Source: Polytrichum commune
Taxonomy: Eukaryota > Streptophyta > Polytrichopsida > Polytrichales > Polytrichaceae
NCBI GenBank assembly: GCA_950295325.1
Contig: OX485806.1
Location: 30,626,001 to 30,690,000, forward strand
Direction: 5' to 3'
DNA length: 64,000 nucleotides
The notes under the pieces were generated by a model. The model was not told where the DNA came from. It made no database searches and saw only the letters and a list, made by a program, of their open reading frames with translations. The position numbers were made by a program, and so were the translations under genes. Below, one piece after another: positions 1-41,451 of the stretch; positions within the stretch are counted from its first letter, which is position 1; each line of letters opens with the position of its first letter.

Positions 1-74
1 AATGTAAAATCTAATTCAAAATTGTGAATAACAACAAGAGCACATCATAATGTGTCATTGAGATCAGGTAAAGA

Positions 75-8700: not shown

Positions 8701-8871
8701 GTATGTGAGCGTAGAGCGGAGAGCGGAGATTTGGAGAGCGGAGAGCGTAGAGGAAATAAAAATAGTAAACTTGTCAGACTAAAATTAGGATATTCCAAAA
8801 TAGCCAAGAATATACCAAGAATATTCCAGAATTTGACAATAATAGTAAAAAAATTGGACCTATTTCCGTGG
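8701..8871 (+). repeat. Left terminal inverted repeat of element A
   Basis: Begins at GTATGTGAGCG, followed by several AGCGGAG/AGCGTAG units and later CCTATTTCCGTGG at 8859-8871. It matches the right end in inverted orientation over the first about 30 bp and again at the inner block. The right copy has more of the short tandem units, so the repeats differ in length. Confidence 0.7.
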
Positions 8872-9205
8872 GATGTATAGGTCATAAAATAAAATAAAAA
8901 CCCTGAATTTGAAATGGTCTCATTAAGTTTGGAAACCGTGAGGTGGTTGAATTATTAAAACCAATGATGACTACAAGAAAAATCAATGAAAATGGATTTT
9001 TTGAGATTGGTATAATTGAAGAATGAGTCAATCAATATACAAAGGAATCAAAATAATAAACTTGCTTGGTTTTTATTCATTACTTTTCTCTTTGTCTTAT
9101 ATGTGAGTCTATTCTATAGCTTGGACTTTAGCAATTATCGTTTGTGGCCGAATAGATTATAAATTGGACTCATACCCAACATAATTGTATATACAGTTGC
9201 ACACA

Positions 9206-9673
9206 ATGGGAGATGAGAGAGACATGTTTGCTGGATTAGGATGGGAGAAGGAAATTAGAAGTCTAGGAGATCCTCATATTCCATTTAATCCATCGCCGGA
9301 ATTTGAGTTTGCTGCTGGAAATCAAAGTAGTGATGACTACGAGCTGACTCCATTTTCGTAGTCTACACAAGCATGGAGGTGGAGGGTGCAGGAGGAGCAA
9401 AAACAATATGAGAAAAAGGAAAAAAGGCAGGAAGATGTGCCGGAGAAGGATGTTGATTTAGATGAAGACAAATCGAACGAAACGGAGGAGGAGGTGAAGG
9501 TGGAAGGGGAATCTTCGAAGTCTCTTTCATTTCGCGAACGGATGAGAGGAATGACGCCGCATCATCTTCCGCTGAAGGATCGAAAGAGAGATAAGACAAT
9601 TTCTTATATGGATTTGCTTCGACCGGGTCCACCTCCCTCGCAATCATCTAAGAAGTATGCAAAACGGAAATAG
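9206..9673 (+). pseudogene. Small acidic/basic protein gene inside element A (one in-frame stop)
   Basis: From ATG 9206 the frame reads 51 codons (MGDERDMFAGLGWEKEIRSL...), meets TAG at 9359-9361, and continues in the same frame to 9673. The full frame would give about 155 residues: an acidic middle (EKDVDLDEDKSNETEEEVKVEGE) and a basic C-terminus (SSKKYAKRK). The stop is one C-to-T change from CAG. No family is recognised. It lies just inside the left terminal repeat, convergent with the MULE-like gene downstream. If the stop is bypassed it could be an accessory protein of the element; I cannot assign a function. Confidence 0.5.
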
Positions 9674-9834
9674 AGTTGATAGACATAGGAAGCATTGTAA
9701 TACAAAATTTTGAAGCAAATAAAAATAATCATTGAGATTATACCTTTATTATATCAATCAATTATTGCTTCACAAGAGGTCCAGAAATGGACACATATAT
9801 CATAGCCCAAAGTACTGCTAGGCTGAGATAAATC

Positions 9835-12800
9835 CTAAGAAGTAGACTTTGTCAAAAGACCCCCTTCGAGGATGAGTTTGACTTCGTTGAAGCTAAATGT
9901 CGGGGCGTGAATGAACAAATTCACTTCCGCATCCAAATTAGAAACCTTGATGAAAATGTAATACAAATGCTTACAATTCAAATAAGAATTTCGTTTGCGG
10001 CTGAACTTGGAAATCATATCCAAGAAAAATGCGCAGTTGCACTCTGGAAGAGAACTGACTGTCACTTGGTAGATCGGTGGTTGGGGTTCTAATTTGGACT
10101 GCAGTGTGATAATGCAACCAAATCCCGGTTGAGGGATCATAGTTAACTTCATAACGGTACCATGCATAGCTTCAGCAGAGGCCACCATCTGCCTCTGCTT
10201 TGCCGAAGGTGCGCTACTGGATCGCCGAACAAGCTTGGACAATCTTGTCGGAGGGATCATGTCGGGGTTTTCTGGAACACGGATTCCAGACATATCCAGC
10301 GGGGGAGCAGAGTTGGTGAAGAGTTGAGTCGGTGTGATGCGCTCCTTTGGTGGGAGTTGAAAACCTGCGTTCTCAAGGGCGAAGATATCCGAGCGGGTGA
10401 GGTTGGTACCAATCTTCACGGGCCAGATTGGGGGAATAGGAGGCTTCTGGTCATGAGCAGAGAACGGCATGACCCATTTCCGACGAGGGCCCTTCACGCA
10501 ACGCTCAATGTCGTCGGGGCAAAAGACAAAGTCCGTGCGCTTCATAGATTGGAGTTTGTAATGATGCCACATACCGGTGTAGGTCGGCGCAGGGACGCTC
10601 TTATTATTAGTGACGATTCTTGCGGTGCACTTCTTCTTCGTGCCCGCATGATTAGCCCAACAAGACTTCCCAGACGTATAGGGTATGCGGGCAATATGCC
10701 AAAGAGAGACATCTACTTTGGTTTCTTGCACGGCAGTGACACGCTGGAAACCAAGTCCTGCAGGTGAAGGCACTTGAACCTCTTGTACAGAGGGGGAAGA
10801 CTCCTCAATGATAGTGGGTAGTGTTTCTGGTTGAGATCGAGTGACACGCTTACCGGGGGGAGGGCGAGAGAAGTTCACGGTATCGGGGCGGTGGGTCTCG
10901 CCATCATCACCAATTGGAGTGTCTGATCTTCGCTTCTGCGATCCAAACACCTCGGCGCCCTCAAGGTGTGGATCGCGAGTGCAAAATTCTTCCCCACCGG
11001 ACATGTCAAGCAAGACCTTCTGCAACACTGTGGGGTCGCCAGTACGCTGAGCTCGACGTTGAGCACCCCTGAGCTTTAGTTCTTCTTTGCTTGGACCATC
11101 TCCGCCAATTCCACCTTTAAGGAACTGGTAGTATGCAACAACTTGTAAGAAGGCGCGAATGTAGTCGTCAACCGTAGCCACGTATAGATCTCCACCCTTG
11201 TTGCCGGAGGCTTGAAGCCATTTGTTGTGGACGGACTCCGCAAGATTGCACGACGGCATCTCGGCCAATTGGTCTTGGGTTAAAACCTTTTCCTGATTGG
11301 AGAAATCAAGTATTAATATAAATGTACAGAGAGAGGAAATCGAATCCAAGAAAAACCAATAATGAATTATGAAGGAGATGTACCAGTTCCATGAAACCAC
11401 CCCATTGAAGGTAGCGGAAGTGCCAAAAAGCAAGCCAGAGCTGAAGATGCTTGAGACCGTCCTCACTTGTACAATTCGATGACGCCCACCAAGCCTTGAT
11501 AGCTAGGTACCTAGTCTCAGCCTCTTCCATAGATGACGCATTTCGATATTGAAGGCAAAGATGTCTATGTTGGTCTTGTAACTCATGCTTTATATACGAT
11601 TTCGTATGTTTTTCGAGCGATTGTTTCCAATGGAAAAAACAAGTGCGCTCACGACCCTCCATTGGAACTTTGGGATCCCCCGAACCATATACAATGCGAA
11701 CAGCGTTCCAATTGGCTTGGGCACTGTCCGCCATGAAGCCTATAAAGTTTGGATGTGGGATACCGTGTCGGGCCATGACGTGGTTGAGGTTCTGCCAGAA
11801 GAGAACTTGGGCATCCTTATCCTCCGATTGGAAATCACAACATGAAATGGTCATGACCCGTTGATAAGTCCCATCGTACACATGAGCGGCCATGGTGGTC
11901 CACCCTTTGACCCGTTTCACGTGATCGGACATCATCCACGCGTTCTCCAGGTCCCCACCCGGTTGCATCCGACGAACCAAATCCACTCCACTTCCAGGAC
12001 CAACCTCCGACATCTTGAAGACGAACACCTTGTCTGTATCGTCACCTTGTCCTGGGAATTGGTTCCGTTGGACGTAGGCCCAATTGCTAACGCCTCGGAG
12101 CTTTGCGATGCCATCCATAACACCAAACCTCCGCAAATATTTGAAAGAGGTAACCTTAGAGCGAAGGTTTGGGGAATTCAACTCTCTACAGCTCTCAAAA
12201 ACAGGTTCAAGCTCTTTTAAAGAGAAGAGACGGTGTGTGTCATTATCGCCAGAAAGGAGAAACTCACCAACAATGTCCTTGCTAGCTTCAAGGACGATCT
12301 TGCTGTGGGTGGCTTGAGGCGTACGTTCAACGTGCTCCTCAAGAAGTGCATTGATACGCTTCCGACTGTCTCTGCAGTCTCCAACCTTCACTGGATGTTG
12401 ATGAGAACCGAGATGAATGCAGGCTCTTTGGGATGACTCCTTCCCATGGACGTAGAAGATTTTGGCCTCGCATAGTGCAATGCATTTGGGAGGCTCTTTA
12501 CAGATCCTGCAGACAAGAGTAGATCCGGATGGCACAATGCCAGAGAGACGGAAAGGATCTTTAGTGAAACCTTCAAATTCTGTGTCATTGACCTTAGAGG
12601 TACGATGGGCGCGTTGAAGGTAATCACAACTCGGGTTTTGGCATTGGAGATGGCCAACACAGGTAGAGGAACGAAATGCAAGGCCAACGTCGTTTGTAAT
12701 GTTGGTGGTTTGAGTCTTAGTCCAAACATGGCCATCATATTGCTTGTCCATGCCGTCCAACGACTTGGCCCTGGTTTGAGATGAAGAGACTTCTGCTGCA

Positions 12801-13546
12801 GGGAGGACAAATAACTGGGTGCCATCGAAACGAGGGGGAAGGTGATTAACTTCTTGGATTTTGATTTTATCGTAATCTATTTTCTTGAGGACGTTCTTAC
12901 TACCGGGCATAGAGCCAAGACGACGAAGACATTGAACAATAGTTTGAGGAGGTTTAGACGTAGGGACCGAAGGAGTTGAAGGGACAGAGCTAGATGGAGA
13001 AGGCGTTATGTAGGATGCAAAGGGAAACAAATGAGGGGAATCATGGACAGCAACCTTATACACTGGTACATCTTCACTCGAAGAATCAGACAAGTCTATA
13101 ACGTTGTCTACACCAGGCTCGGTCTTGACGCTTATTACGGGGGGTGTGCTAAAGGCAACAGTGGATGATCGAAGAGGAGGAAGGATTTCTGTTGACACTT
13201 CCATCTGAGAATCTGGCCAGCCACAAACCCTATACTTTCCCGCGCCAAGCTCCCACACTACATTGCCATTGTCAGTTATCTTGGAGGTCTCATGGAAGGT
13301 ATGAACGAGCAATCCAGTATCAGGATGGTAGATCTCACGCTCTACCCATATTGTACTAGCTTTCAAAGAGAACCTAATGCTAAGATGAAGCTCCGAGACA
13401 ACAACAATACCTTGTGCACCAATGGGGAATATAATAGGGACCCCGATGCCATGTGAACGAAGTTCGGCCATCTCAGAGACGGGAGGAAGAATTGAGGTGG
13501 AAGCCATGAAGGCAGAGAAAGCAAACGTGAAGGAACAAAGATGCAA
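9835..13546 (-). CDS. MULE-type transposase with N-terminal zinc-binding region and C-terminal SWIM finger
   Basis: Two exons: 13546-11384 and 11292-9835, with a GT-AG intron in phase 0, giving about 1,206 residues (Met at 13507 is an alternative start that removes a hydrophobic leader). Order of parts: Pro/Ser-rich N-terminus; a zinc-binding, FLYWCH/WRKY-GCM1-like segment (CVGHLQCQNPSCDY); a MULE core with a first Asp in HVYDGTYQ, a second Asp in GFMADSAQANW, and the C-x2-H pair in ERTCFFHW; a Ser/Pro-rich linker; and a SWIM finger of the C-x-C...C-x-H type (ECNCAF...NCKHLY). MULE transposases cut and insert DNA at terminal inverted repeats. Both exons are open, so the protein could be functional. 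It lies on the opposite strand from the other genes of element A and probably mobilises it. Confidence 0.75.
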
Positions 13547-13826
13547 AGATGCATAGAGAAGGAGAATGGTGATGACGATGAAGTTATAAACAAATACGCA
13601 TGAATATCAGGAAGGAGACAAAACTGTCAGGCATCCTAAAAAAAAATACCCCTAATTACAAAGATGGTTGTCAGATAGTAAAGCGCGCCTCCCATCGGGA
13701 GGTATTGCAATTATATACTGAGAAGAATGCGATTGCTCACTTTCTTTCCAATGTGTGAGTTTGATGTGGTGAGGTTGTGGAAAGGAAATAGAGCGAATAG
13801 GTCTGAATTGCGGGAGGGTTGAACAC

Positions 13827-14776
13827 ATGAAGGAAATAGGCAATTCACAACCTCCGACAACGGAACCATCTAAGAAAAAGAAGAGGAGGCGATCGTCTAC
13901 ACATTACACTGATAAGAAGAGAAAGACAGTGAGGACACAAAAGTCACAGGCAAGGAAAGCGCCAATTGAGGGCCGTGGGACGCCCGAGGATTTGAGCCAA
14001 AGCATAAAGGACCTGCGGAAACCTTCGTGGAGGTTAGACTGTGGGATTCGGCCTTTTCATTTATCACCGATTGTAGAAGAGGCGGACGGAAGTAAAGCGC
14101 AACCAATGGCAGAAGTGGAGGAGTTGGGAAACGACAGCATCCAAGAGGACTCACGCGAAGAGACAAACTCTACAAGTGTCGTACGTATTCTTCGGGTTCT
14201 CCATATATTCAGTTGTTTGAGCACATAATGAAAATGGTAGAACATATTCAACTGTGAAACAACTTTTCTTTTAGATATTATGGTTTGTCATCATTGTTAT
14301 AAACATTGTTTTATCTTAAATATAGGAAGAGGGGGGGAGTGGAGATAGTGGAAATATCTATGAAGAAGACAACAAGGAGGTAGCACAACAAATTGAGAAG
14401 GCGTTAGAAGAGCGAGAACCGATGTCGGGACAACCAACGATTCAAGCAAGAGAAAAAATGAAGGCGTCCAAGAGGAAAGCGGCAAAGGAAGATCTGAAAT
14501 CAAATTTGTTGGGAGGCTGCGAAAGAGCTGAAGGAGGAGACCCATGCGCAGAAACCCTAAGTGTGGATGTTGTGACCCCTGCTTCAAGATTTCTGCGAAG
14601 CAAGGCGGGCGGAACACAACAAACATCAAGGCGAGGGCGTGGCCGCGGGAGAGGAATGGCGCAAGTAAACCTCGGAGATTCGAGAAGCACTCCAATATCG
14701 CCGACAGAGGACGGGACCTCGGAAGATAGTGGCGCCAATATAGGGGCTTCAGTGGAGGGCATACTCCAAATTCTGG
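13827..14776 (+). CDS. Basic/acidic low-complexity protein upstream of the palindrome satellite
   Basis: Two exons join in phase 0: from ATG 13827 to the GT after ACAAGTGTC (about 14178), then from the AG before GAAGAGGGG (about 14326) to the donor GTAAGG at 14777. The product starts with a nuclear-localisation-like cluster (KKKKRRRSSTHYTDKKRK), then acidic stretches, and ends near an RGRGRGRG segment. No conserved domain is recognised. It is divergent from the MULE-like gene, with about 280 bp between the two start codons. It ends at a good splice donor only about 240 bp before the first palindrome, so either more exons follow or it is the leader of the ParB/methyltransferase gene, with the whole satellite in one intron of about 8 kb. 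The latter is conjecture. Confidence 0.5.
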
Positions 14777-15013
14777 TAAGGTGTCGGGATCTCGGCCAAG
14801 CTATGTTTGCCAACGTTTTTGCTTTCTATCACCTTGATTTCTCATAGTATTTGGAATATCAGCTTGACTTGCTTTCGGCCTTGTCTTGATTTGGGTTTAG
14901 GAACATGTTAGGAAAGGTATGTTTGTGCTTGAAAAATCAAAAGGTTATGTGCACATCATGTTGCTCTCGGCCTTGTCTCGTTTTGTGTAGTGCACAAGAA
15001 CGAGCTAGGGCAA

Positions 15014-18000
15014 GAGGCCTCGGATCCGAGGCCTCATATTTGTGTAAGTTTGAGTATGTGAGAGGTAGGGTTTTGAGGGAGGTGAGGTTCTTGATTTCTC
15101 AACCTAATAGAATGTCAACTTTCTTGCTTTCTTGATTCCTTGCTCTCGGCCATTTCTTCTATTGTGTAGTGCATAAGTGGGAGCCATAGGAAGAGGCCTC
15201 GGATCCGAGGCCTCTTATTTGTGGGTAGGTTTGTGCTTGAAAAATCAAAATGTTATGTGCACATCAATTGCTCTCGGCCTTGTCTTGTTTTGTGTAGTGC
15301 ACAAGAACGAGCTAGGGCAAGAGGCCTCGGATCCGAGGCCTCTTATTTGTGTAAGTTTGAGTATGTGAGAGGTAGGGTTTTGAGAGAGGTGAGGTTCTTG
15401 ATTTCTCAAACTAATGGAATGTCAACTTTCTTGCTTTCTTGATTCCTTGCTCTCGGCCATTTCTTCTATTGTGTAGTGCATAAGTGGGAGCCATAGGAAG
15501 AGGCCTCGGATCCGAGGCCTCTTATTTGTGGGTAGGTTTGTGCTTGAAAAATCAAAATGTTATGTGCACATCAATTGCTCTCGGCCTTGTCTTGTTTTGT
15601 GTAGTGCATAAGAAGGAGCTAGGGGAAGAGGCCTCGGATCCGAGGCCTCTTATTTGTGTAAGTTTGAGTATGTGAGAGGTAGGGTTTTGAGAGAGGTGAG
15701 GTTCTTGATTTCTCAAACTAATGGAATGTCAACTTTCTTGCTTTCTTGATTCCTTGCTCTCGGCCATTTCTTCTATTGTGTAGTGCATAAGTGGGAGCCA
15801 TAGGAAGAGGCCTCGGATCCGAGGCCTCTTATTTGTGGGTAGGTTTGTGCTTGAAAAATCAAAATGTTTTGTCCACATCGATTGCTCTCGGCCTTGTCTC
15901 GTTTTGTGTAGTGCATAAGAAGGAGCTAGGGCAAGAGGCCTCGGATCCGAGGCCTCATATTTGTGTAAGTTTGAGTATGTGAGAGGTAGGGTTTTGAGAG
16001 AGGTGAGGTTCTTGATTTCTCAACCTAATAGAATGTCAACTTTCTTGCTTTCTTGATTCCTTGCTCTCGGCCATTTCTTCTATTGTGTAGTGCATAAGTG
16101 GGAGCCATAGGAAGAGGCCTCGGATCCGAGGCCTCTTATTTGTGGGTAGGTTTGTGCTTGAAAAATCAAAATGTTATGTGCACATCAATTGCTCTCGGCC
16201 TTGTCTTGTTTTGTGTAGTGCACAAGAACGAGCTAGGGCAAGAGGCCTCGGATCCGAGGCCTCTTATTTGTGTAAGTTTGAGTATGTGAGAGGTAGGGTT
16301 TTGAGAGAGGTGAGGTTCTTGATTTCTCAACCTAATAGAATGTCAACTTTCTTGCTTTCTTGATTCCTTGCTCTCGGCCATTTCTTCTATTGTGTAGTGC
16401 ATAAGTGGGAGCCATAGGAAGAGGCCTCGGATACGAGGCCTCTTATTTGTGGGTAGGTTTGTGCTTGAAAAATCAAAATGTTATGTGCACATCAATTGCT
16501 CTCGGCCTTGTCTTGTTTTGTGTAGTGCACAAGAACGAGCTAGGGCAAGAGGCCTCGGATCCGAGGCCTCTTATTTGTGTAAGTTTGAGTATGTGAGAGG
16601 TAGGGTTTTGAGAGAGGTGAGGTTCTTGATTTCTCAAACTAATGGAATGTCAACTTTCTTGCTTTCTTGATTCCTTGCTCTCGGCCATTTCTTCTATTGT
16701 GTAGTGCATAAGTGGGAGCCATAGGAAGAGGCCTCGGATCCGAGGCCTCTTATTTGTGGGTAGGTTTGTGCTTGAAAAATCAAAATGTTATGTGCACATC
16801 CATTGCTCTCGGCCTTGTCTTGTTTTGTGTAGTGCATAAGAAGGAGCTAGGGCAAGAGGCCTCGGATCCGAAGCCTCATATTTGTGTAAGTTTGAGTATG
16901 TGAGAGGTAGGGTTTTGAGGGAGGTGAGGTTCTTGATTTCTCAACCTAATAGAATGTCAACTTTCTTGCTTTCTTGATTCCTTGCTCTCGGCCATTTCTT
17001 CTATTGTGTAGTGCATAAGTGGGAGCCATAGGAAGAGGCCTCGGATCCGAGGCCTCTTATTTGTGGGTAGGTTTGTGCTTGAAAAATCAAAATGTTATGT
17101 GCACATCAATTGCTCTCGCCCTTGTCTTGTTTTGTGTAGTGCATAAGAAGGAGCTACGGCAAGAGGCCTCGGATCCGAGGCCTCTTATTTGTGTAAGTTT
17201 GAGTATGTGAGAGGTAGGGTTTTGAGAGAGGTGAGGTTCTTGATTTCTCAAACTAATGGAATGTCAACTTTCTTGCTTTCTTGATTCCTTGCTCTCGGCC
17301 ATTTCTTCTATTGTGTAGTGCATAAGTGGGAGCCATAGGAAGAGGCCTCGGATCCGAGGCCTCTTATTTGTGGGTAGGTTTGTGCTTGAAAAATCAAAAT
17401 GTTATGTGCACATCAATTGCTCTCGGCCTTGTCTTGTTTTGTGTAGTGCATAAGAAGGAGCTAGGGCAAGAGGCCTCGGATCCGAGGCCTCATATTTGTG
17501 TAAGTTTGAGTATGTGAGAGGTAGGGTTTTGAGGGAGGTGAGGTTCTTGATTTCTCAACCTAATAGAATGTCAACTTTCTTGCTTTCTTGATTCCTTGCT
17601 CTCGGCCATTTCTTCTATTGTGTAGTGCATAAGTGGGAGCCATAGGAAGAGGCCTCGGATCCGAGGCCTCTTATTTGTGGGTAGGTTTGTGCTTGAAAAA
17701 TCAAAATGTTATGTGCACATCAATTGCTCTCGCCCTTGTCTTGTTTTGTGTAGTGCATAAGAAGGAGCTAGGGCAAGAGGCCTCGGATCCGAGGCCTCTT
17801 ATTTGTGTAAGTTTGAGTATGTGAGAGGTAGGGTTTTGAGAGAGGTGAGGTTCTTGATTTCTCAAACTAATGGAATGTCAACTTTCTTGCTTTCTTGATT
17901 CCTTGCTCTCGGCCATTTCTTCTATTGTGTAGTGCATAAGTGGGAGCCATAGGAAGAGGCCTCGGATCCGAGGCCTCTTATTTGTGGGTAGGTTTGTGCT

Positions 18001-18105
18001 TGAAAAATCAAAATGTTATGTGCACATCAATTGCTCTCGGCCTTGTCTTGTTTTGTGTAGTGCACAAGAACGAGCTAGGGCAAGAGGCCTCGGATCCGAG
18101 GCCTC
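15014..18105 (+). repeat. 307-bp satellite block, two palindromes per unit
   Basis: Palindromes begin at 15014, 15193, 15321, 15500, 15628, 15807 and so on to 18084, alternating 179 and 128 bp, giving an exact 307-bp period over about ten units. Units come in slightly different versions (CTCAACCTAATAG versus CTCAAACTAATGG) that alternate irregularly, which points to recent amplification and exchange between units. Confidence 0.95.
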
Positions 18106-18227
18106 TTATTTGTGTAAGTTTGAGTATGTGAGAGGTAGGGTTTTGAGAGAGGCGAGGTTCTTGATTTCTCAAACTAATGGAATGTCAACTTTCTTCCATT
18201 TTTGATTCCTTGCTCTCTGCCTTGTGC

Positions 18228-18249
18228 CCCACGGGCGAACGCCCGTGGG
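18228..18249. repeat. Second palindrome type, copy 1 (CG-stem version)
   Basis: Arm CCCACGGGCG, core AA, then the exact reverse complement of the arm: the same 10-2-10 geometry as the main palindrome but a different sequence. Compared with the copies at 21474 and 21544, one position is changed in both arms symmetrically (arm end GCG versus GTG). Confidence 0.9.
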
Positions 18250-18329
18250 CCATGTAACAAGTAACTTGGTTAGGCATGTCTTTATGAGGCACTTTGGTTG
18301 GTTCTGAGTATGTAAACTAGTTTGTGTGT

Positions 18330-19573
18330 GAGGCCTCGGATCCGAGGCCTCTCGGCCGGGGCCACTTGAGGTTTTTTGATTCAAAGTATAACTTGTATGA
18401 ATGAGGCACTTTGCTTGTTTTTGAGGATGTAAACTAGTTTGTGAATGAGGCCTCGGATCCGAGGCCTCTTTTATGTGTTCCAAAACAAGTGTAGAGAAGA
18501 GGCACTTTGGTTGGTTTTGAGTATGTAAACTAGTTTGTGAATGAGGCCTCGGATCCGAGGCCTCTTTTATGTGTTCCAAAACAAGTGTACGGAAGAGGCA
18601 CTTTGGTTGGTTTTGAGTATGTAAACTAGTTTGTGTGTAAGGCCTCGGATCCGAGGCCTCTCGGCCGAGGCCACTTGAGGTTTTTTGATTCAAAGTATAA
18701 CTTGTATGAATGAGGCACTTTGCTTGTTTTTGAGGATGTAAACTAGTTTGTGAATGAGGCCTCGGATCCGAGGCCTCTTTTATGTGTTCCAAAACATGTG
18801 TACGGATGAGGCACTTTGGTTTGTTTTGAGTATGTAAACTAGTTTGTGAATGAGGCCTCGGATCCGAGGCCTCTCTTATGTGTTCCAAAACAAGTGTACG
18901 GAAGAGGCACTTTGGTTGGTTTTGAGTATGTAAACTAGTTTGTGTGTAAGGCCTCGGATCCGAGGCCTCTCGGCCGAGGCCACTTGAGGTTTTTTGATTC
19001 AACGTATAGCTTGTATGAATGAGGCACTTTGCTTGTTTTTGAGTATGTAAACTAGTTTGAAAATGAGGCCTCGGATCCGAGGCCTCCTTTTAGTGCCCTC
19101 GATCAGCAGTCCCCAGGGAGTGGCTCCCGGGACTGCGAATGTTCAAACAGGCATAACTTCCTTGATTTTTGCCCAAATGGGGCAAGTGAGGTGTCCATCG
19201 GCATCTACATTTCACGTAGATGACGATAGAGTGGTTGATTGTTAGATTCGGAGACCACACGTGGAAGATATGGAGGTCTGAAGCTGCCGGGGGGGGGGAA
19301 ATGTGTTTTGTTAAGTGCATATGTAGAAGCTAGGAGAAGAGGCCTCGGATCCGAGGCCTCTTTTATGTGTTCCAAAACTAGTGTACGGATGAGGCACTAT
19401 GGTTGGTTTGGAGTACGTAAATTACTTTGTGTGTGAGCCCTCGGATCCGAGGCCTCTCAGCCGAGGCCACTTGAGGTTTTTTGATTCAACGTATAGCTTG
19501 TATGAATGAGGCACTTTGCTTGTTTTTGAGTATGTACACTAGTTTGAAAATGAGGCCTCGGATCCGAGGCCTC
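18330..19573 (+). repeat. Mixed satellite block with 487-bp duplication
   Basis: Palindromes at 18330, 18447, 18543, 18639, 18756, 18852, 18948, 19065, 19339, 19435 and 19552 are separated mostly by 96 or 117 bp of sequence with GTAAACTAGTTTGTG before the palindrome. A 487-bp unit (about 18966-19452, repeated to about 19820) is duplicated almost exactly; it carries the hairpin at 19106-19136 and 19593-19623. The long minus-strand frame through this block is repeat-derived. Confidence 0.85.
19106..19136. repeat. Hairpin with bulge, first copy
   Basis: GCAGTCCC pairs with GGGACTGC and the inner GGGAG pairs with CTCCC around a TGG loop, leaving a 2-base bulge. A near-copy is at 19593-19623, exactly 487 bp later. 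It differs in sequence from the other palindromes. Confidence 0.8.
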
Positions 19574-19825
19574 CTTTTAGTGCCCTCGATCAGCAGTCCC
19601 CTGAGAGTGGCTCCCGGGACTGCGAATGTTTAAACAGGCATAACTTCCTTGATTTTTGCCCAAATGGGGCAAGTGAGGTGTCCATCGGCATCTACATTTC
19701 ACGTAGATGACGATAGAGTGGTTGATTGTTAGATTTGGAGACCACACGTGGAAGATATGGAGGTCTGAAGCTGCGGGGGGGGGGGAAATGTGTTTTGTTA
19801 AGTGCATAAGTAGGAGCTTTGGGAA

Positions 19826-20737
19826 GAGGCCTCGGATCCGAGGCCTCTTTTTTGTGTCAAGGTTTGTGCTTGAAAAATCAAAACGTTAGGTTCATTTTTG
19901 AATTCTCTCGGCCATTTTCTGTAGTATGTATTTCATAAGGAGGGGCATTCGGAAGAGGCCTCGGATCCGAGGCCTCATTTTTGTGTCAAGGTATGTGCTT
20001 GAAAAATGAAAATCTTATGTTCATTTTTGAATGGTCTTGGCCTTCTTGTTTTGGGTAGTGCATAAGTAGGTACTTTGTGAAGAGGCCTCGGATCCGAGGC
20101 CTCATTTTTGTGTCAAGGTATGTGCTTGAAAAATGAAAATCTTATGTTCATTTTTGAATGCTCTTGGCCTTCTTGTTTTGGGTAGTGCATAAGTAGGTAC
20201 TTTGTGAAGAGGCCTCGGATCCGAGGCCTCATTTTTGTCTCAAGGTATGTGCTTGAAAAATGAAAATCTTATGTTCATTTTTGAATGCTCTTGGCCTTCT
20301 TGTTTTGGGTAGTGCATAAGTAGGTACTTTGTGAAGAGGCCTCGGATCCGAGGCCTCATTTTTGTGTCAAGGTATGTGCTTGAAAAATGAAAATCTTATG
20401 TTCATTTTTGAATGCTCTTGGCCTTCTTGTTTTGGGTAGTGCATAAGTAGGTACTTTGTGAAGAGGCCTCGGATCCGAGGCCTCATTTTTGTGTCAAGGT
20501 ATGTGCTTGAAAAATGAAAATCTCATGTTCATTTTTGAATGCTCTTGGCCTTCTTGTTTTGGGTAGTGAATAAGTATGTGTTTTGGGAAGAGGCCTCGGA
20601 TCCGAGGCCTCATGTTTGAGTCAATTTTATTTAAGAAAAATCAAAATGTTATGTTCGTGTAAGATTACTCTCGGCCTTCTTGTTTTGGGTACTACATGAG
20701 TAGGAGGTTTGTGAAGAGGCCTCGGATCCGAGGCCTC
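19826..20737 (+). repeat. 127-bp satellite block, one palindrome per unit
   Basis: Palindromes begin at 19955, 20082, 20209, 20336, 20463 and 20590, exactly 127 bp apart; the first (19826) and last (20716) are at 129 and 126 bp. The inter-palindrome sequence resembles half of the 307-bp unit (GTGCTTGAAAAAT..., ...GTAGTGCATAAG), so the 307-bp unit probably arose by pairing two diverged versions of a shorter unit. Confidence 0.9.
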
Positions 20738-21351
20738 TTGTTTGTGTAAGTTTGAGTATGTGAGAGGTAGGGTTTTGAGAGAGGCGAGGTTCTTGATTTC
20801 TCAAACTAATGGAATGTCAACTTTCTTGCTTTCTTGATTCCTTGCTATCGGCCATTTCTTCTATTGTGTAGTGCATAAGTGGGAGCCATAGGAAGAGGCC
20901 TCGGATCCGAGGCCTCTTATTTGTGGGTAGGTTTGTGCTTGAAAAATCAAAATGTTATGTGCACATCAATTGCTCTCGCCCTTGTCTTGTTTTGTGTAGT
21001 GCATAAGAAGCAGCTAGGGGAAGAGGCCTCGGATCCGAGGCCTCTTATTTGTGTAAGTTTGAGTATGTGAGAGGTAGGGTTTTGAGAGAGGCGAGGTTCT
21101 TGATTTCTCAAACTAATGGAATGTCAACTTTCTTGCTTTCTTGATTCCTTGCTATCGGCCATTTCTTCTATTGTGTAGTGCATAAGTGGGAGCCATAGGA
21201 AGAGGCCTCGGATCCGAGGCCTCTTATTTGTGGGTAGGTTTGTGCTTGCAAAATCAAAATGTTATGTGCACATCAATTGCTCTCGGTCTTGTCTTGTTTT
21301 CTGTAGTGCATAAGAACCAGCTAGGGGAAGAGGCCTCGGATCCGAAGCCTC
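20716..21351 (+). repeat. Second short block of the 307-bp satellite
   Basis: Palindromes at 20716, 20895, 21023, 21202 and 21330 repeat the 179/128-bp alternation seen at 15014-18105. The two 307-bp blocks are separated by other unit types, so array segments have been moved or duplicated. Confidence 0.85.
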
Positions 21352-21473
21352 CTATTTGTGTAAGTTTGAGTATGTGAAAGGTAGGGTTTTGAGAGAGGTG
21401 AGGTTCTTGATTTCTCAAACTAATAGAATGTCAACTTTCCTGGTTTTTTGGTTCCTTGCTCTCTGCCTTGTGC

Positions 21474-21565
21474 CCCACGGGTGAACACCCGTGGGCCATG
21501 TAACAAGTAATTTGGTTAGGTTTTAACATCATCAAATGTGTGCCCCACGGGTGAACACCCGTGGG
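21474..21565. repeat. Second palindrome type, two copies (21474-21495 and 21544-21565)
   Basis: Arm CCCACGGGTG, core AA, and the reverse complement of the arm. Both copies are followed by GCCATGTAACA and sit 70 bp apart at the end of a 307-bp block, in the same context as the copy at 18228. Confidence 0.9.
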
Positions 21566-21599
21566 CCATGTAACAGGTAACTTGGGTAGGATTTAGCAT

Positions 21600-21937
21600 C
21601 ATCACGGGGAGATGTCTCCATGTCAAATATTTTTAAAAATTATGATTTTTTTTCTCTATATTCATAACTATTGATTATATCTTTTGTATATTTTTTTGAA
21701 ATTTTTTGTCATCTTCATTTTTTCTAGTAATTGTTTTAGTTGAATTCTGCGTCATTCTAGGTAGAAATGGTATGTTTTCTAGAAAAATATGGTCATCAAA
21801 TTTGGTCATGATATTTTACTCCGTAATAGATATCATGTATATCTACGTCCCAAAAAAATTTGAGAAAAGTTTGACCCATTTTGGTGATGCAACTTGGCAA
21901 TGGAGTGACCTCCCCTGGAACATCATCAAATGTGAAC
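21600..21937. other. AT-rich segment between copies of the second palindrome
   Basis: A stretch of very AT-rich DNA, unlike the surrounding satellite, lies between the palindrome copies at 21544 and 21938. No coding sequence is supported. Confidence 0.5.
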
Positions 21938-21959
21938 CTCACGGGTGAACACCCGTGAG
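21938..21959. repeat. Second palindrome type, diverged symmetric copy
   Basis: Arm CTCACGGGTG, core AA, exact reverse complement. Relative to 21474 the second arm position is T instead of C, and the matching position of the other arm is changed too, so the copy remains a perfect palindrome. Confidence 0.9.
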
Positions 21960-22015
21960 CCATGTAACAAGTAAATTGGTTAGGTTTTAAAATCATCAAG
22001 GAGGGGCATTTGGAA

Positions 22016-22673
22016 GAGGCCTCGGATCCGAGGCCTCATTTTTGAGTCAGGTTGTGTGCTTGAAGAATGAAAATGTTAGGTTCATTTTTTAATTCTCTCG
22101 GCCATTTTCTGTAGTATGTATTTCATAAGGAGGGGCATTCGGAAGAGGCCTCGGATCCGAGGCCTCATTTTTGTGTCAAGGTATGTGCATGAAAAGTTAA
22201 AATGTTATGTTCATTTTTGAATGCGCTTGGCCCTCTTGTTTTGGGTAGTGCATAAGTAGGTACTTTGTGAAGAGGCCTCGGATCCGAGGCCTCATTTTTG
22301 TGTCAAGGTATGTGCTTGAAAAATGAAAATCTTATGTTCATTTTCGAATCCTCTCGGCCTTCTTGTTTTGGGAAGTGAATAAGTATGTGTTTTGGGAAGA
22401 GGCCTCGGATCCGAGGCCTCATGTTTGTGTCAATTTTATGCTAGAAAAATCAAAATGTTATGTTCGTGTAAGATTGCTCTCGGCCTTCTTGTTTTGGGTA
22501 CTACATGAGTAGGAGGTTTGTGAAGAGGCCTCGGATCCGAGGCCTCATTTTGGAGACAATGTATGTGCTTGAAAAGTCAAACTGCTATGTTCACATAAGA
22601 TTTCTCTCGGCCTTTTTCTTTTGGGTAGTGCATAAGGAGGAGGTAGGAAAAGAGGCCTCGGATCCGAGGCCTC
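22016..22673 (+). repeat. Final satellite block before the ParB/methyltransferase-like gene
   Basis: Palindromes at 22016, 22145, 22272, 22399, 22525 and 22652 are 126-129 bp apart, resembling the 127-bp block. This block lies immediately upstream of the gene and probably in its leader intron, because a polypyrimidine tract and CTTAG precede the first coding exon at 22843. Confidence 0.9.
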
Positions 22674-22845
22674 TCATTCGTAGGTAGGTTAGTGCTAGAG
22701 TTGAGCACTTGACTTAGCATTCGGCCATTTCCATTTGTAGTTTGCTCTCGGCGTTGTATTGTTTTTGTGAGGATTTGTTTCTTTATAGTTACGAAGTTAT
22801 TGACTTTTCTTTGTGAAATTCTCATTTTCTCCATGTTCTTAGGAT

Positions 22846-25800
22846 ATGGACTCTTCACAGGTTGCGCAATCGCAACCCCAATCTGGAGAGGATGTTGTTC
22901 TTGCGGCCCCCGCGGTTGAAGTTGAAGCTGTGCAGGTTGAGAGTCTCAATTCGCAGGGCCCATTACAAGTAGAGGTGAGTTGGATAGTTGTTGAATAATT
23001 TGTTAAGCAAGTTTTTTGAGTTCTAGCTTTCTAAGCATGGTTTTATTGTTTGTGTTTTTGTTAGGCTCTCGCAATGAGCGAAGATGCCGTTCAAGCAGTT
23101 GCCGACACGGATCCCGTGGTGTGTGAGCTTGAGCTTCGGAAATCACAAAAGGAGGACTCCATTGGTGTTATCCAACGCCTTCGGATTAAGCCAACATGTA
23201 AGTCCCGCTTATCCATTCCTTTATGCCGCTTGAGAGCCCTCCCTCTCGTCCGTCCTATCAGTGAGGTTGAGGTGCAGCGCTTGGAATGTGAATTTGTAAT
23301 GGGATACCGAGAGGGTGATCGGGTTCTTTACGTGTCTTCTTTCAACGACGTTCCCGTGGACCTCCCCATTCCCCCTGGCATTATGGCCTCTTGGAGCCCT
23401 CTCTGGCAAGAGGCCTCCGCAGAATTTGACGCCAAGCTCAAGGAGGATCCGGATCTTGCACATTTCGCCGGGAAGATGTTCTTCGTCTGGGAAGGCAATC
23501 ATCGTCTCACCGCTTGGTGGAGACACATCAATAACCACCACGCCGATGACAAGAGTTGGCATATCTCGGTGGATTGCATTGTTGTTGACCCTAGAGGATA
23601 CACCGGTATATTCCTCAATGCCATGAGCGACATTAATTGGTAAGCTCATTCATTTTTTTCATTCATTTTTCATTTTTGTTTCAATTCTTTTCCATTCTTT
23701 TCAGCTTACGTTCCTCACATATTTTTTCTCAGGTCAACCGAGCATGATTATGTCAAGGCAAACATTCCGGCCAAGCTCCTTCGAATCCGCACTTTTGGGA
23801 GGTTAGAGTTGTCCACCTTCAAGGATCTTATATCGCCATCTGACTACAAAGCATGCGAGAAGATAAAGGAGAGTCGCCCAACTTGGTACACCTTGACCGC
23901 GGATATGTTCGTTAAGTTTCTTTACAAGGTATGGTTTTATGCATTCAATCATTTAGAGCTTCCAACATAGATAATTTCCATACCGATTATATGAACTCAC
24001 AAGGTCATTTCTTGCAGAGAGACATTTCGGCTCAAGCAGACCTTGCAGTGAGGCATTACCGTGAGACCACACCCGTTGCGGAGAGGTCGGCCACTGAGAT
24101 TTGGAATGTTATGACCAAGGCCCAGGAGAGGACAATCAAAAGTATTCGGGCCCGTTCTTTTGAGAAGTACATATCCGTTGCACACCCTGACAATGGAAAG
24201 GATTTATTTCATGAGGTACTCTTTTGAACTCAAATCACTCTTGAACGGAATTCATCCAAATCACTCTTCAACTCTATTATTCTTTTGAACTCAAATCATT
24301 TTTATTTTGTGCACAGATTGACCGTCATTTTAATGAGTTCTCTTCGACGGACATGACAATTGAAAAATTGCAAAAAATTGTCACATGCCCGGTCGAAGCT
24401 TCGTTCAAAGCTAAGTGGCTTCACTGGTGGAACGCCCCCCTTCGTGAAAGGTTAGATAACAAGTTCCCCGTCGACAAGCCTATGAGGGAGAGGGCTTTGG
24501 ACGACTGGCTACACAAGGCGTCCTTCTGGGCTCAAGTAAATCCATTCCTCGGCCTTCTTCATTTTCATTTTCCTCTATTCCATTTATCTCATATCTAATC
24601 ATCTCCTTCTCTGCAGTTGGAGAAAGAAGTCGCGGTTGAAATTGAGACCTTAGAGGAGAGCCTCTCCGTCGACATTGATTGGGACGCATCAGAAACTATC
24701 TTGCGCCCTCGTGAGTACGTTGATCATTGGCGGATTGTCCTTTGGGACAAGGCCTTCAAGCCTTATCTCGGCGATAAGCCTGACATCGCATTTGCCAAAG
24801 GTGATAATCTCTTGGAGTTCGAGGAGGGGGCTCTCGCTATCAAGCGTGTAGCCTATCGGTAATACATCTATCCTCCACTTTGCACCTCTCCTTAATGTCA
24901 TTTCTTGCTCGTTTTGTTGGTTTTCTTACATTCTTGTTTTGTCATGTAGGTATATCATGAGAGAATTGGTTGTGAAGAATGCATTGGCCTCATCTTCCTT
25001 GCCGGACTACCTCTCGGACTGGGTGAATATTTTTTCTAGCCTCTGCGTGTATACGACCGCGCAAACAAACAAGTTTTCCGAATTGCACTTGCAGGGTGGT
25101 GGATGGTACTTGGATTGTGCTGCAGGATTTGTCCCCGGGGAAGAGAAGGCTTTGTTTGCTAGCCTTGTGGGTAGTACTCTGGATAATAATATTGTTACCT
25201 TGGAGGACCCTGACATCGTTGAGCTTCCCCCTCCTCCTCCTAAGGCACCAAGGAGAAAGGGCAGAGCAAAGAAGACCGCCACTCAAGCATCTTCCCAAAT
25301 TCTCACTCGGTCTGCTTCTAAGACCCCGGTTGAGCCACCCACCCTTCCACACAGTCCATCTATCGCTCCCTCCGTTGCTCCCTCTCTTGCCCCTTCTGTT
25401 ACTCCATCTGCATTTCATCCACAATCTCTTGCCACTCCATCTCATAGTGGCACTTCTCTCCTCTCTTTGCCTCGCAAGAGGAAGGCCGCTCTCTTGGATA
25501 CCAGTGCCACCTCTTCGGATGCCACTAACACGCTTACCCTCATCGAAAATGTGGACATGGTTCAACTAATGCTGGATTCCGAGGTTGCCGGAGGTCCCCT
25601 CCCCGCATATACCCGCATCCAAGAGTTCATTGCCAAGGTTTGTATACTTGCCTTCGTCAATTCTCAATTTTTTTTCCTTTGCTTTGTTTATTTCTTTCCT
25701 TCTTGTTTTCTCATGAAGTTTCAATTGCAGGTTGGGGCAGGTCGTTCCCGTGTGAACACCTCGACTACAACTCACAAGGGCCTCGATTTGCTCTTCGCCG

Positions 25801-27046
25801 ACATTCCCGAAAATTTGCCGGTGCCGAACATCTCCACCGATGTTCCTGCTTGGAACAAGCTCCATGAATCATACTATGAGTGTCTTTTTGCATTTGCGAA
25901 ATCTAACATCTATGATCATGGTGTCCTTGTTCTTGCCCATTGTGCGAGTGCCAGTGTTTCTAGGAGTATTTTCGATTGGGCACACACTTATGACTTCTAC
26001 GTCGCGGAAGATTGGTTTGGAATGAATGATTTAGACCTCCAATCTCCCGTTGTTCCCTCTGGAGTGGTAAGCAAGTCTCCCTCTCTTCCCCTTCCGTATT
26101 GCTTATCATTTCAATTTCAATTCAATTTCAATTCCATTTCATTTCAATTCAATTTCATTTTCATTGTTGCAGACTCGGAAGTTCAACATCAAAGTTCTTG
26201 TTCGTGTTAACTCCGTTCTTAGAGTGCGGGAGGAGGCCATACAAGAGTATGGTTACAACCTCCAACGAGATGGATGGTTGAATACCTTCACCGATGAGAA
26301 GAGCCAGACGATGCGCAGTGATGGGGTACCTTGGCGAGGTGCCCGTGAGAAGCATCCTGTTTTTTTTTCCATCCTTCTCGCTACTCTCACCGACAAGAAT
26401 GATGTTATTATGGACTGGCAGTGTGGTGTAGGTACGCCTTCTTTTTCAACTTCATCCTTACTTTGAATTTTCCATTATTTTTCCTTGACTAGTTTTCATA
26501 CTAACATTTTACCTCTCTTTGCTTTAGGTGGTTCGATTACAGCATGTCGCTCCCTTGAGCGGCATATTGTGGCCCTTGAGAGTGACCCCGTCATTTTCAA
26601 TTCACTCCTACTCCCCATGCGCGATCCCCAGCCTGCGCGTATATCTCGCTCAGTTGCCGCACCGTCTACATCTATCTTTGATCCTCCTCAAAAGATGACC
26701 AAGAGGGCATTCGGATTTCTTTGTGCGTAAGTTTGCTTTCTATATTTTGCCATGTTTGCTTTTATTTCAAATTCTCATTTTCTAGTGTCATCATGTTTCT
26801 AATCCTTTTGCTTGGGTGTTTAGAGAGCCAGCGGAGGTCGCAGTCATTCGTCGAGACATGTTTTCAAGTCCTCCGAAGCCGTTTGAGCTTCCCCCGTATG
26901 CTAGTGCAATGGCGGATTGTTTTGCGAAGGCGGAGTCCCCATCTCCTCCTCGCGTTCGTCATTTCTCGCGTGGAACACGAAATCTTTTCTTGTTAGAAGC
27001 AAATGAGGGTGAGGAGAGTGATAGGGAATGTTCTCCAAGCCCTTAG
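22846..27046 (+). CDS. ParB-like plus permuted N6/N4 DNA-methyltransferase-like fusion protein (element A)
   Basis: Eleven exons join in frame with GT-AG introns: 22846-22974, 23065-23639, 23733-23928, 24018-24215, 24317-24535, 24617-24858, 24950-25637, 25731-26066, 26173-26431, 26528-26726 and 26824-27046, giving 1,087 residues. Residues about 60-235 end in FFVWEGNHRLTAWW, like the G-x-H-R signature of ParB/Srx-fold domains. After a helical middle comes a basic, Pro/Ser-rich linker (PRRKGRAKK). The C-terminal third has the order of a beta-class amino-methyltransferase (motif IV first, motif I last): GLDLLFADIPE where DPPY would be expected, then DWQCGVGGSITACRSLERHIVALESD, a good motif I with the acidic residue of the next strand. 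Bacterial and phage proteins join ParB-like and methylase domains in this order. The altered motif IV suggests lost or changed catalysis, leaving DNA binding. All exons are open and no stop is needed. The palindrome satellite lies directly upstream. Confidence 0.7.
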
Positions 27047-27936
27047 TTTATCATTTTGGTTTTGGAGATTATAACTCCGTTTGTTGTTGTTATCCGGCTT
27101 TAATAAAAGTTGTGTGTTGGTTTTATTTTTGATATCCGGCGCAAGTTTCATTCTTTCTTTCCATTATTTCATATTCATATGTCAACCCGCATTGCATTCT
27201 TTATTTTTTCTTCATCGTTCGGATCTCTTAACTTCTAGTCACAAAACAATCTAGCTCTCGGCTCTTAGTGTGAGATCTTAGTTATAGGGGGACCATACTT
27301 TCTATTAGTGTGGATGGTTTATTTTATGGTTGTGCACACTAATCACATTGGCCGTCTTCCAATCCCAATTGCTATATAGCAATTGGAAGTTTTGTTTGGC
27401 ACGCGAACATAACCTCGTCAAACTTTTTAAATTGAAATTCATGTTGTTCTCAAAGAGCCGGCACGTCACCTCAAAAATTTCCAAGAGGATTCTAAGGTTG
27501 GACTTGGGGGATTTGTCTTTGAGGTCTTTGGCTAAGCTAAGGACTTAATTGGAAGGCTGTTATGGTGCGACGGAGTTTTATGGCATGTTCTTTGGATCAT
27601 TTTACCCATATTGGACATGCCCGGCAGATAGGGTGTAGATGGCCCTAAACTAGAGTATATAGTTATTTTAACTAACTACCCATTTTTGTAAGTCTTGAGG
27701 TTGGCTACATTTTGTTGACCAATAAAATATTTTGTGTATGGTATTTTGATTTCAATTTGGTGACGTCAGCCCTAATTTAATATGATACATTTGAAAACAT
27801 ATACTATAAGATGTTTGATAACAAATGCAATCTTCCACGCCTATAGGATCCGTTGGTTTCTCAAACAATTCTGGGTTATTATGTCCACGGGAATGGGGGT
27901 ACCTTTCCAAATATAGAATTCAAACTATCTCTAATT

Positions 27937-28000
27937 CCACGGAAATAGGCACTGCTTCTCCTAAAATTACCCAACAAAATCTAAATTTTCCGCTCTCCAA

Positions 28001-28045
<45 letters not shown>

Positions 28046-28057
28046 ACGCTCACATAC
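27937..28057 (-). repeat. Right terminal inverted repeat of element A
   Basis: Read on the minus strand it starts GTATGTGAGCGTAGAGCGG, runs through at least six GAGAGCG-type units, and has CCTATTTCCGTGG at 27949-27937, as the left end does. It lies about 890 bp after the stop codon of the ParB/methyltransferase-like gene. Confidence 0.7.
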
Positions 28058-28671
28058 TTGAGTTTCCCGTTCATTTGAGACTTGGAGTGGGAGCGGGATA
28101 ACAACGGAGCATGTTCTGTTTCGCCCTACGCTTCGTTCTGGTGAATGTTTTGGAGCGGAAGCGGGAGCTGCACTGGAGGTTGTTATTCGGGAGCGGTGAC
28201 TTTGTTCATTGGATAAGGTAAGTTTGATATCATTTGATATGGTGGTGGAATACTGGAGTTCTAGATTGGAGAAGTACTTGGTTGAATTGGATGTGCGGTT
28301 GTGTTGTTTTTTCGGAAGATTAGGAAGAATTCGGAAGAATTTCAGGAGTGGACGGAAGAGTACCTGCGTAGGAGAATTTCGGGACTGGACGGAGTGTTGC
28401 TATGGAGTTTGTTGTTTTCTTGCCGCGGCCGGGAAGGTGAGTGTTATGAGCTGTCGTAGTCGTTGCGGTCTTTGATTGCATTTAGTGTGATGTTTCGTTT
28501 TGTTTGTGACGAGTTCTTTGACAATGTTGTTTGCTTTTTTTAGCGCTGTTTGGTATTGCTCACTTATTAGTTGACTCTAGTGCAAGCATTTCCTTCTATG
28601 AATTGTCGTTTTTTAAGGTGTAATTGACTCCTCAGTGGATTGATGTTTACAGGTGAGACAAAAACAGGAAA

Positions 28672-38392: not shown

Positions 38393-38820
38393 GTTTTGGG
38401 AGACGACCCAAACACAACCTCAGGTTTGGGTCGAGTGACCCAAACTCAGCCTCAGGTTTGGGTCGAGCGACCCAAACCTAGCATCCTGTTTGGGTCGGTC
38501 GACCCAAACACAACCTCATGTTTGGGTCGAGCGACCCAAACTCAGCCTCAGGTTTGGGTCGAGCGACCCAAACCTAGCATCTTGTTTGGGTCGGTCGACC
38601 CAAACACAACCTCATGTTTGGGTCGAGCGACCCAAACTTAACCTCATTTTTATAAACGTATCAGGACATCAATGATGATAAAGACGATATAAAATGCAGA
38701 TCCACCTACAAATAACAAAGTATCATATTACCTTACAAATGACTATTATATCACAATATACAATCCACGAAAAATGTGCATTTGTTCAATCTGGAGAAGT
38801 TTGGGTCGAACGACCGAAAC
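38393..38820. repeat. Palindrome array B2, in the likely leader intron
   Basis: Copies start at 38424, 38456, 38488, 38520, 38552, 38584 and 38616, exactly 32 bp apart, preceded by a degenerate copy at 38393; one more lies alone at 38799-38820, ending 26 bp before the start codon. Arms are GTTTGGGTCG as in B1, but the cores are AG or GT, and AA in the last copy. A possible donor near 38275 and the acceptor GTGCAG directly before the ATG would place all of them in one leader intron. Confidence 0.9.
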
Positions 38821-41448: not shown

Positions 41449-41451
41449 GTT
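41449..41451. other. Target-site duplication GTT (left), CACTA element
   Basis: GTT precedes the left CACTA terminus and is repeated at 51339-51341 right of the other terminus. Three-base duplications are typical of CACTA insertion. Confidence 0.9.

Follow-up and report, generated by a model that had tools for sequence, protein, structure and literature searches.

The palindrome cluster and its ParB-like gene

Positions 30626001–30690000 of C4 (contig OX485806.1) in the 407.8-Mb genome assembly of the land plant Polytrichum commune (GCA_950295325.1) form the 64,000-nucleotide window analysed here. Matches to the plant families NAC (28 exon matches) and zf-FLZ (2 matches), all above the cut-off, occur in this genome and agree with a land plant, FLZ not being known outside that group. 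It carries a large transposon of the terminal-inverted-repeat (TIR) type, termed F1 (8690–28068, 19.4 kb), in which a cluster of nearly invariant palindromes directly precedes a gene for a protein with ParB-like and DNA-methyltransferase (MTase)-like features. The palindrome, GAGGCCTCGG-AT-CCGAGGCCTC (22 bp), is present between 15014, where the first copy begins, and 22673 in 50 copies with at most one mismatch, 44 of them exact, and the gene starts at 22846. An earlier sequence-only reading of this DNA had described about 50 such palindromes immediately before a gene for a 1,087-residue protein; that observation is confirmed, and the interpretation built on it is partly supported.

The F1 ParB-like/MTase-like gene (22846–27046, plus strand) was modelled from splice signals and reading frame, without transcripts, and eleven GT-AG exons reproduce the 1,087-residue product (22846–22974, 23065–23639, 23733–23928, 24018–24215, 24317–24535, 24617–24858, 24950–25637, 25731–26066, 26173–26431, 26528–26726 and 26824–27046). 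Exon 2 (23065–23639), which has at least 150 matches in the genome, encodes the ParB-like motif GNHR (FVWEGNHRLTAW), conserved in 9/9 aligned F1 exons and fitting GxxR, the nucleotide-contact motif of ParB. Exons 8–10 (25731–26726) resemble a permuted amino-MTase, with LDLLFADIPE at the place of motif IV followed by IMDWQCGVGGS at motif I. Single-protein similarity to MTases is weak (phrog_18293, E 0.015; DpnA in PDB, E 0.057), and a profile of three F1 copies matches DpnA at E 0.01. The fusion of a ParB-like and a permuted amino-MTase domain that the sequence-only reading had proposed is retained for the F1 gene as a weak assignment, in which the MTase part follows from the DpnA match, weaker than that of the F2 type described below, and the putative ParB part from the GNHR motif.

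The exact F1 22-mer occurs in 1,903 copies in the genome, and the same letters read backwards in none. Within the window, the sites are spread over several different repeat units of about 307, 127 and 96 bp, so that the palindrome is common to the units and the spacers between sites are not. The first 50 genomic sites listed are all on C1, and 49 of them have a match to F1 exon 2 no more than 8 kb away, in a tally that covers the listed places only and counts clustered sites that are not independent of one another. The CpGs of the palindrome were also considered as a possible sign of protection from decay, and they are intact in 49 cores, with no transitions, whereas a spacer motif has 5 changed out of 36; these numbers are too small and were not used.

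The cluster lies well within the element, as the conserved termini and a 4-bp duplication are located farther out than the TIRs. The TIRs are perfect and 29 bp long (8701–8729, plus strand; 28029–28057, minus strand), and 211 such ends with at most two mismatches were found genome-wide, with many pairs 16–23 kb apart among the matches listed (100 places). The outer termini, GGACGACACTT on the left and TTGAGTTTCCC on the right, are retained in the window and in 10/10 other TIR pairs, with substitutions in one pair, and the target-site duplication CATT flanks the insertion at 8683–8686 and 28072–28075. A matching 4-bp repeat, the length of duplication known from Sola elements, accompanies eight of ten other F1 insertions and is missing from the remaining two. 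On each side, three variable bases separate the conserved termini from the duplication (8683–8689 and 28069–28075) in the window and in 8/10 insertions (L022–L041), and they recall the coupling sequences of conjugative transposons.

The F1 order is gene A (minus strand), the palindrome cluster and the ParB-like gene (plus strand), and the cluster is internal, separated from the two element ends by about 6.3 kb and 5.4 kb. Gene A comprises two open reading frames (ORFs; 9835–13546), which we take to encode a transposase from the pattern DGTY...ADSAQANW...CFFHW, its transposase nature being unproven; a Pfam scan of gene A returned nothing above the cut-off. Outside the element, positions 1–8000 hold long minus-strand ORFs (2185–3060, 3198–3791 and 4447–5562) that may belong to another large element.

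Palindromes of one geometry across diverged ParB-like loci

The same window contains a second element, F2, which spans 31460 to at least 54563 and carries a ParB/MTase-type gene very distant from that of F1. Its palindrome, GTTTGGGTCG-NN-CGACCCAAAC, amounts to 29 sites in the window with at most two mismatches, and its centre bases vary (AC, AG, GT, AT, AA, GG). Thirteen sites form a cluster at 34305–35141 and eight lie directly upstream of the ParB-like gene (38424–38820), whose exon 1 (38847–40172, plus strand) encodes the predicted ParB/Srx fold; three more sit in intron 1 (40202–40316). Exon 2 (40409–41451, plus strand) encodes a helical part and the first half of the MTase-like domain; an in-frame stop ends its first ORF at 41140, and the exon is interrupted by an inserted CACTA (En/Spm) element. 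The remainder of exon 2, with the motif I-like CIFNVFGGSKPIYAAM, follows at 51340–51630 on the plus strand, and further palindromes lie past motif I and in the 3′ part (51657–53308; at 51657, 51693, 52896, 52965 and 53287), two of the 3′ sites falling inside an ORF (52573–53277). The nested CACTA element (41452–51338; Transposase_21, E 1.4e-66), which looks complete, is flanked by a 3-bp target-site duplication GTT.

Additionally, F3-type palindromes were found on the F1 element itself, at 18228–18249 (CCCACGGGCG-AA-CGCCCGTGGG), at 21474–21495 and 21544–21565 (two exact copies of CCCACGGGTG-AA-CACCCGTGGG) and at 21938–21959 (CTCACGGGTG-AA-CACCCGTGAG), the first and last of which carry matching changes in both arms. 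The motif CCCACGGGTG-NN-CACCCGTGGG has 644 copies genome-wide, with none for its control, and it belongs to a third element family, F3, read from L001–L003, which are pieces of one element, as are L012 and L013. Gene order in F3 is that of F2: a DUF7869 gene on the minus strand, the ParB/MTase-like gene and an FCP1-type phosphatase gene. In the same kind of tally of listed places, the first 50 F3 sites, on C1, divide into 37 with a match to the F3 ParB exon no more than 18 kb away, 11 with a match to F1 exon 2 no more than 2.8 kb away, and 2 near neither. One transposon family may therefore carry sites for the protein of another.

A gene for a DUF7869-containing protein occupies the same place and orientation in F2 (31460–34126, minus strand; Pfam E 1.5e-39) and F3 (L001 622–2697), with 38–50% identity between the two, and is a candidate transposase. 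Likewise, an FCP1-type (NLI-interacting-factor-like, NIF) phosphatase-like gene adjoins the ParB-like gene in both families (F2, ORF at 53799–54563, plus strand, Pfam NIF E 1.4e-13; F3, L003), with 34% identity over 189 residues, as a second accessory protein.

Searching the genome with the F3 ParB exon led to further groups of ParB-like genes at 23–29% identity, from which eight representatives (L014–L021) were fetched together with diverged copies of the first two families (L004–L013). The sequence-only reading had held that homologues without a palindromic array nearby would speak against it; all 23 ParB-like loci, comprising 10 of F1, 2 of F2, 1 of F3, 3 of the L019/L020 kind and 7 of F4, have a palindrome cluster of the same geometry, weakly in L021 and imperfectly in L018. 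This common geometry consists of two half-sites of about 10 bp flanking a 2-bp spacer, with sequences such as CTTCCTCTCG-NN-CGAGAGGAAG in L016, CTTTCACTCG-AT-CGAGTGAAAG in L017, TTACGAACG-NN-CGTTCGTAA in L019 and TTTACGGACG-NN-CGTCCGTAAA in L020. L021 is the weakest of the 23, with 6 sites at up to four mismatches, and L018 has 9 sites, none of them a perfect copy of its consensus with 10-bp arms.

Six held-out loci were fetched after the rule had been stated. Four of them (L047–L050) are upstream stretches of F1 copies whose identity is 70% and 61%; clusters were present in 4/4 and revealed two new palindromes, ACCCTCTCGG-AA/TT-CCGAGAGGGT in L047 and L048 and AATCCCACGG-AT-CCGTGGGATT in L049 and L050, the latter two loci being 99% alike. 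L051 and L052 likewise carry clusters, with the palindromes expected of L020 and L017; identity is 95% between L051 and L020 and 92–99% between L052, which has a broken frame, and L017, so that these two are re-samples and not new families. Under a strict test, in which an exact palindrome with 8-bp arms must recur at least three times, 15 of the 18 fetched stretches pass, as do L047–L050 (4/4) and L051 and L052 (2/2). L021 fails since it has only 2 exact copies, and L007 and L010 fail since their right half-site is one base off in most copies. In these two loci, the right half-site now reads CCGAGGGCTC in 16/18 and 24/29 sites, respectively (L010 at up to four mismatches), with the left one unchanged, giving an asymmetric operator. 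By the same test, no recurrent palindrome was found in 5 random 8-kb loci, 3 other stretches of the window or 360 resampled loci.

Half-sites differ among protein lineages and are largely fixed inside a lineage, with eleven half-site sequences observed, some only one or two bases apart. On a tentative reading, the inner bases beside the spacer (CGG-NN-CCG in F1, CG-NN-CG in F2/F4) would be common to a protein superfamily, and about seven outer bases would change with the protein. In permutation tests, half-site change tracks protein distance in F1 (9/5,000) and F4 (11/5,000), and the test is not significant in F2, with four loci (815/5,000). The presence of different palindromes on similar elements with similar proteins suggests recognition of each element by the protein that it encodes.

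Uniformity is higher in the arms (0.92–1.00) than in the flanks (0.41–0.89) in 16/16 site sets; the spacer is loose in eight of these sets (mean top-base frequency below 0.75) and reaches 0.81–1.00 in the others. For the ParB-like exon, the window sequence and the F1 copy L004 differ by a synonymous divergence (dS) of 0.90 with a nonsynonymous-to-synonymous ratio (dN/dS) of 0.09, and the arm consensus in L005, the upstream stretch of L004, is identical to that of the window over 12 sites, 4 of them exact; the neutral chance of 20/20 equal arm bases is 3.4e-7, a figure which assumes that the arrays evolve at the synonymous rate with no exchange between copies. In the copy L010 (dS 1.11, dN/dS 0.08), one arm base has changed. 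Seven F1 pairs and ten F4 pairs were compared. dN/dS is 0.05–0.14 in the seven pairs for which dS is defined and exceeds 0.1, and 0.55 in one near-identical pair with very few changes; the remaining nine and one F2 comparison are saturated. The ParB-like exon is under purifying selection.

Predicted folds and a lost catalytic motif

Structures were predicted for the F2 ParB exon and for the MTase exon of its homologue L013. The AlphaFold2 model of the ParB exon (predicted local distance difference test, pLDDT, 72; predicted template modelling score, pTM, 0.70) retrieved with Foldseek only ParB, SbnI, KorB, PadC or sulfiredoxin entries at ranks 1–24, the best being 7bm8 (E 5.3e-3, probability 1.00, TM 0.36/0.40). 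A second structure comparison placed 7bnk first (Z 8.5, root-mean-square deviation [rmsd] 2.7, 95 residues aligned), and most of its 34 rows bear the names ParB, Noc, KorB, PadC, SbnI or sulfiredoxin; the others (free serine kinase, 1vk1, 2hwj and SspE) we take to be ParB-like as well. Moreover, phrog_1033, a ParB-like family, is matched by 3/10 members of the ParB exon set (best E 0.0065). With modest scores, these models support an N-terminal ParB/Srx fold in the F2 gene.

The L013 MTase exon model is of low confidence (pLDDT 58.6, pTM 0.41), and its Foldseek ranks 1–34 are permuted amino-MTase entries (best E 2.2e-3). In the second comparison, 50/50 rows are methyltransferases or restriction-modification proteins, led by MboIIA (Z 9.0, rmsd 3.4, 157 residues aligned), so that a permuted amino-MTase fold is supported by modelling for the F2-type exon. 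Structure prediction, which the sequence-only reading had called for on the 1,087-residue F1 protein, points to both folds in the F2 gene type, and the F1 gene itself is assigned from motif and profile.

Profile and family searches added little. Pfam has no family in either the F1 or the F2 ParB-like protein, including DUF1985 and DUF287, and returned stray weak matches in members of alignment A1; PDB profile searches with alignments A1, A2, A3 and A6 gave chance-like matches or none. PHROG showed no MTase match for five members of the MTase-exon alignment (A2) and nothing useful for the F1 exon, and viral contigs scanned with the F1 ParB profile contained no relative. Comparison of F1 with F2–F4 profiles by hhalign was not significant for the ParB-like or the MTase-like domain, and we therefore make no claim of homology between them.

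The catalytic motif IV of amino-MTases is (D/N/S)PP(Y/F). At its position, placed from alignment reading without a solved complex, F1 has DIPE or DIPK in 3/3 copies read and the F2/F4 type has DFRx(I/F)PG in 6/6 aligned copies. By this sequence evidence, the catalytic DPPY appears to be lost in the copies read of both the F1 and the F2/F4 types, and the MTase-like domain would probably serve as a binding or effector module.

Proposed operators, their likely binder and the alternatives

Three known systems frame the interpretation. The protein class is already known from algal transposons. The sequence-only reading had not known the arrangement from plant transposons, and according to the main text of Dinatale et al. 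2025 (PMC12477816), which, for green and red algae, also refers to Iyer 2011 and Petroll 2025, Sola1-1_Ec32 of Ectocarpus encodes a 1104-residue accessory protein with ParB-like and MTase parts in a 21.5-kb transposon, opposite to the transposase. The F1 protein (1,087 residues, opposite to gene A, in a large TIR element of 19.4 kb) is likened to it by architecture; as that text describes the algal element, the present ones differ in their land-plant genome, their many diverged families, their loss of DPPY and their family-specific palindrome clusters. The string “palindrom” has no occurrence in that main text, and we found no literature report of palindromes with transposon ParB genes, a mention in Iyer 2011 or Petroll 2025 being possible. 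As far as searches show, the land-plant setting, the many diverged families, the loss of DPPY and the matching family-specific palindromes are new.

VANC proteins of the Arabidopsis VANDAL transposons, which are Mutator-like elements, provide a functional parallel to the reading proposed below. They contain DUF1985/DUF287 and recognise a 9-bp motif (Hosaka et al. 2017, PMC5735166), and in those parts of the reports that treat the target motifs, these form tandem repeats, occupy upstream regions and introns, and differ between related families (PMC5735166; Sasaki et al. 2023, PMC10398659). The moss elements share with that description an element-encoded putative DNA-binding protein and a short, repeated, family-specific motif upstream and in introns, and depart from it in having ParB/MTase-like folds and a 22-bp palindrome of two half-sites.

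The third parallel is with bacterial ParB, Noc and KorB proteins and their parS-type sites, through the predicted ParB/Srx fold of F2 and palindromic sites clustered near the gene. Bacterial parS is 16 bp long, whereas the present sites measure 22 bp with a 2-bp centre, reside in a eukaryotic transposon and, in F2–F4, accompany a protein that has lost the GxxR arginine. The F2-type MTase exon, in turn, resembles β-class N6-adenine/N4-cytosine MTases and the MT-A70 family (fold matches to M.BceJIV, M1.HpyAVI, CcrM, MTA1 and METTL3-METTL14) but has its catalytic DPPY replaced; METTL14 is a precedent for an inactive member.

A BLAST comparison of the F1 ORFs with those of F2 and F3 gave a single match, itself marginal (E 0.004), in which the region of F1 exon 10 pairs with an F2 ORF that lies outside the F2 ParB exons. 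As the ParB/MTase-like protein is, by domain make-up, the only apparent common component of these unrelated element types, and palindrome geometry is common to them as well, we infer that this protein is the binder, and we regard it as quite probable that the ParB-like protein binds the palindromes. Since the sites are arranged as VANC targets are, in tandem repeats, in upstream regions and introns, and with motifs specific to each family, anti-silencing is favoured, with auto-repression as its main rival; given binding, the former would be at least an even prospect and perhaps slightly better. Put together, the palindromes would be operator clusters through which the element's own ParB-like protein keeps that element expressed, in the manner of VANC, a proposal to which we assign about an even chance. 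In this mechanism, the ParB-like/MTase-like protein of each family would bind as a dimer to a palindrome whose half-sites, about 10 bp each, are separated by a 2-bp spacer. Dozens of such sites lie between the element genes and, in F2, also within introns of the gene for the ParB-like protein. Once bound, this protein, which might also spread from its cluster, would keep the element's promoters open against host silencing. More tentatively, and with somewhat less than even confidence, we envisage about ten ParB–operator pairs with a modular site code, in which family self-recognition by ParB-type loading and spreading lets elements escape silencing and the MTase fold is non-catalytic.

Several observations weigh against this proposal. 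A few F3-type palindromes on F1 elements are not predicted by a rule of one protein and one site, and in F1, L015 and L017 the spacer hardly varies. The F2 fold matches are modest, none reaching E 0.001 or better for the ParB or the MTase exon, and the GQHS or GQHT found in 10/10 aligned F2–F4 exons is without the arginine of GxxR. F1 exon 2 has no ParB match in PDB, Pfam or PHROG, and hhalign gives it a probability of 0.2–0.3% against the F2–F4 profile, though GNHR is paired with GQHS. Finally, because the cis and trans parts reside on one element, their co-divergence alone could reflect common descent.

Auto-regulation deserves the most attention among the alternatives. The ParB-like protein would here repress its own promoter and that of the transposase, as plasmid KorB does, and so limit transposition, which agrees with KorB appearing in the structure comparison of the F2 ParB domain, and with clusters placed between the genes of an element and, for F2, within introns of the gene itself; 50 sites per element, however, far exceed the need of a simple operator, and the F2 sites also occupy introns and 3′ parts, leaving this explanation unlikely in our judgement. 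Alternatively, the palindromes could be bound by the transposase, as the subterminal repeats of En/Spm are bound by TnpA. Repeated transposase sites are common in transposons, and gene A and the DUF7869 gene adjoin clusters, but the F1 cluster is internal (15014–22673 of 8690–28068) and not at the ends, and the putative transposases of F1 and F2/F3 are dissimilar (best E 0.071) on elements with the same palindrome geometry, which makes such a role improbable. Still more doubtful is self-marking, in which an active amino-MTase would write N6-methyladenine or N4-methylcytosine on its own element. The fold matches and the DpnA-like motif I region are consistent with it, as is the GATC within the F1 palindrome and the AT-centred sites of other families; this target marking, which the sequence-only reading had entertained, is nevertheless weakened by the replacement of DPPY, and GATC is not general, an AT centre being found in 5/29 F2 sites of the window and 1/19 F3 sites. 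Dinatale et al. 2025 proposed such marking for the algal relatives, as their main text has it.

Two further explanations can be given very little credence. Amplification of the palindrome as a functionless satellite through unequal crossing over would fit the tandem units of 307, 127 and 96 bp, which show that the array has expanded, yet the arms are kept in units that differ, across high synonymous divergence and in every lineage examined, and at 18228 and 21938 both arms have changed in a matching way, so that we consider it highly improbable. The partition-like role suggested earlier, with the cluster as a parS-like centromere that partitions or tethers an episomal or chromosomal form of the element, draws on the resemblance of a ParB fold and clustered palindromes to ParB–parS; it is the faintest of the prospects considered, because the array sits inside a transposon of which many integrated copies exist, and a general Pfam scan of 10 proteins or pieces, with no search aimed at ParA, showed no ParA.

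If operator clusters serving self-recognition and anti-silencing are indeed what these palindromes represent, eukaryotic transposons would have reused a bacterial partition-type DNA reader to recognise themselves, and the many operator copies per element would make the system directly testable. The diverged protein–site pairs would provide a recognition code of the ParB type and orthogonal DNA-binding modules for plant epigenome editing. In line with this perspective, sequence-specific anti-silencing of the VANC kind would have a second, independent origin, a point of relevance to the coexistence of transposons with DNA methylation in their hosts.

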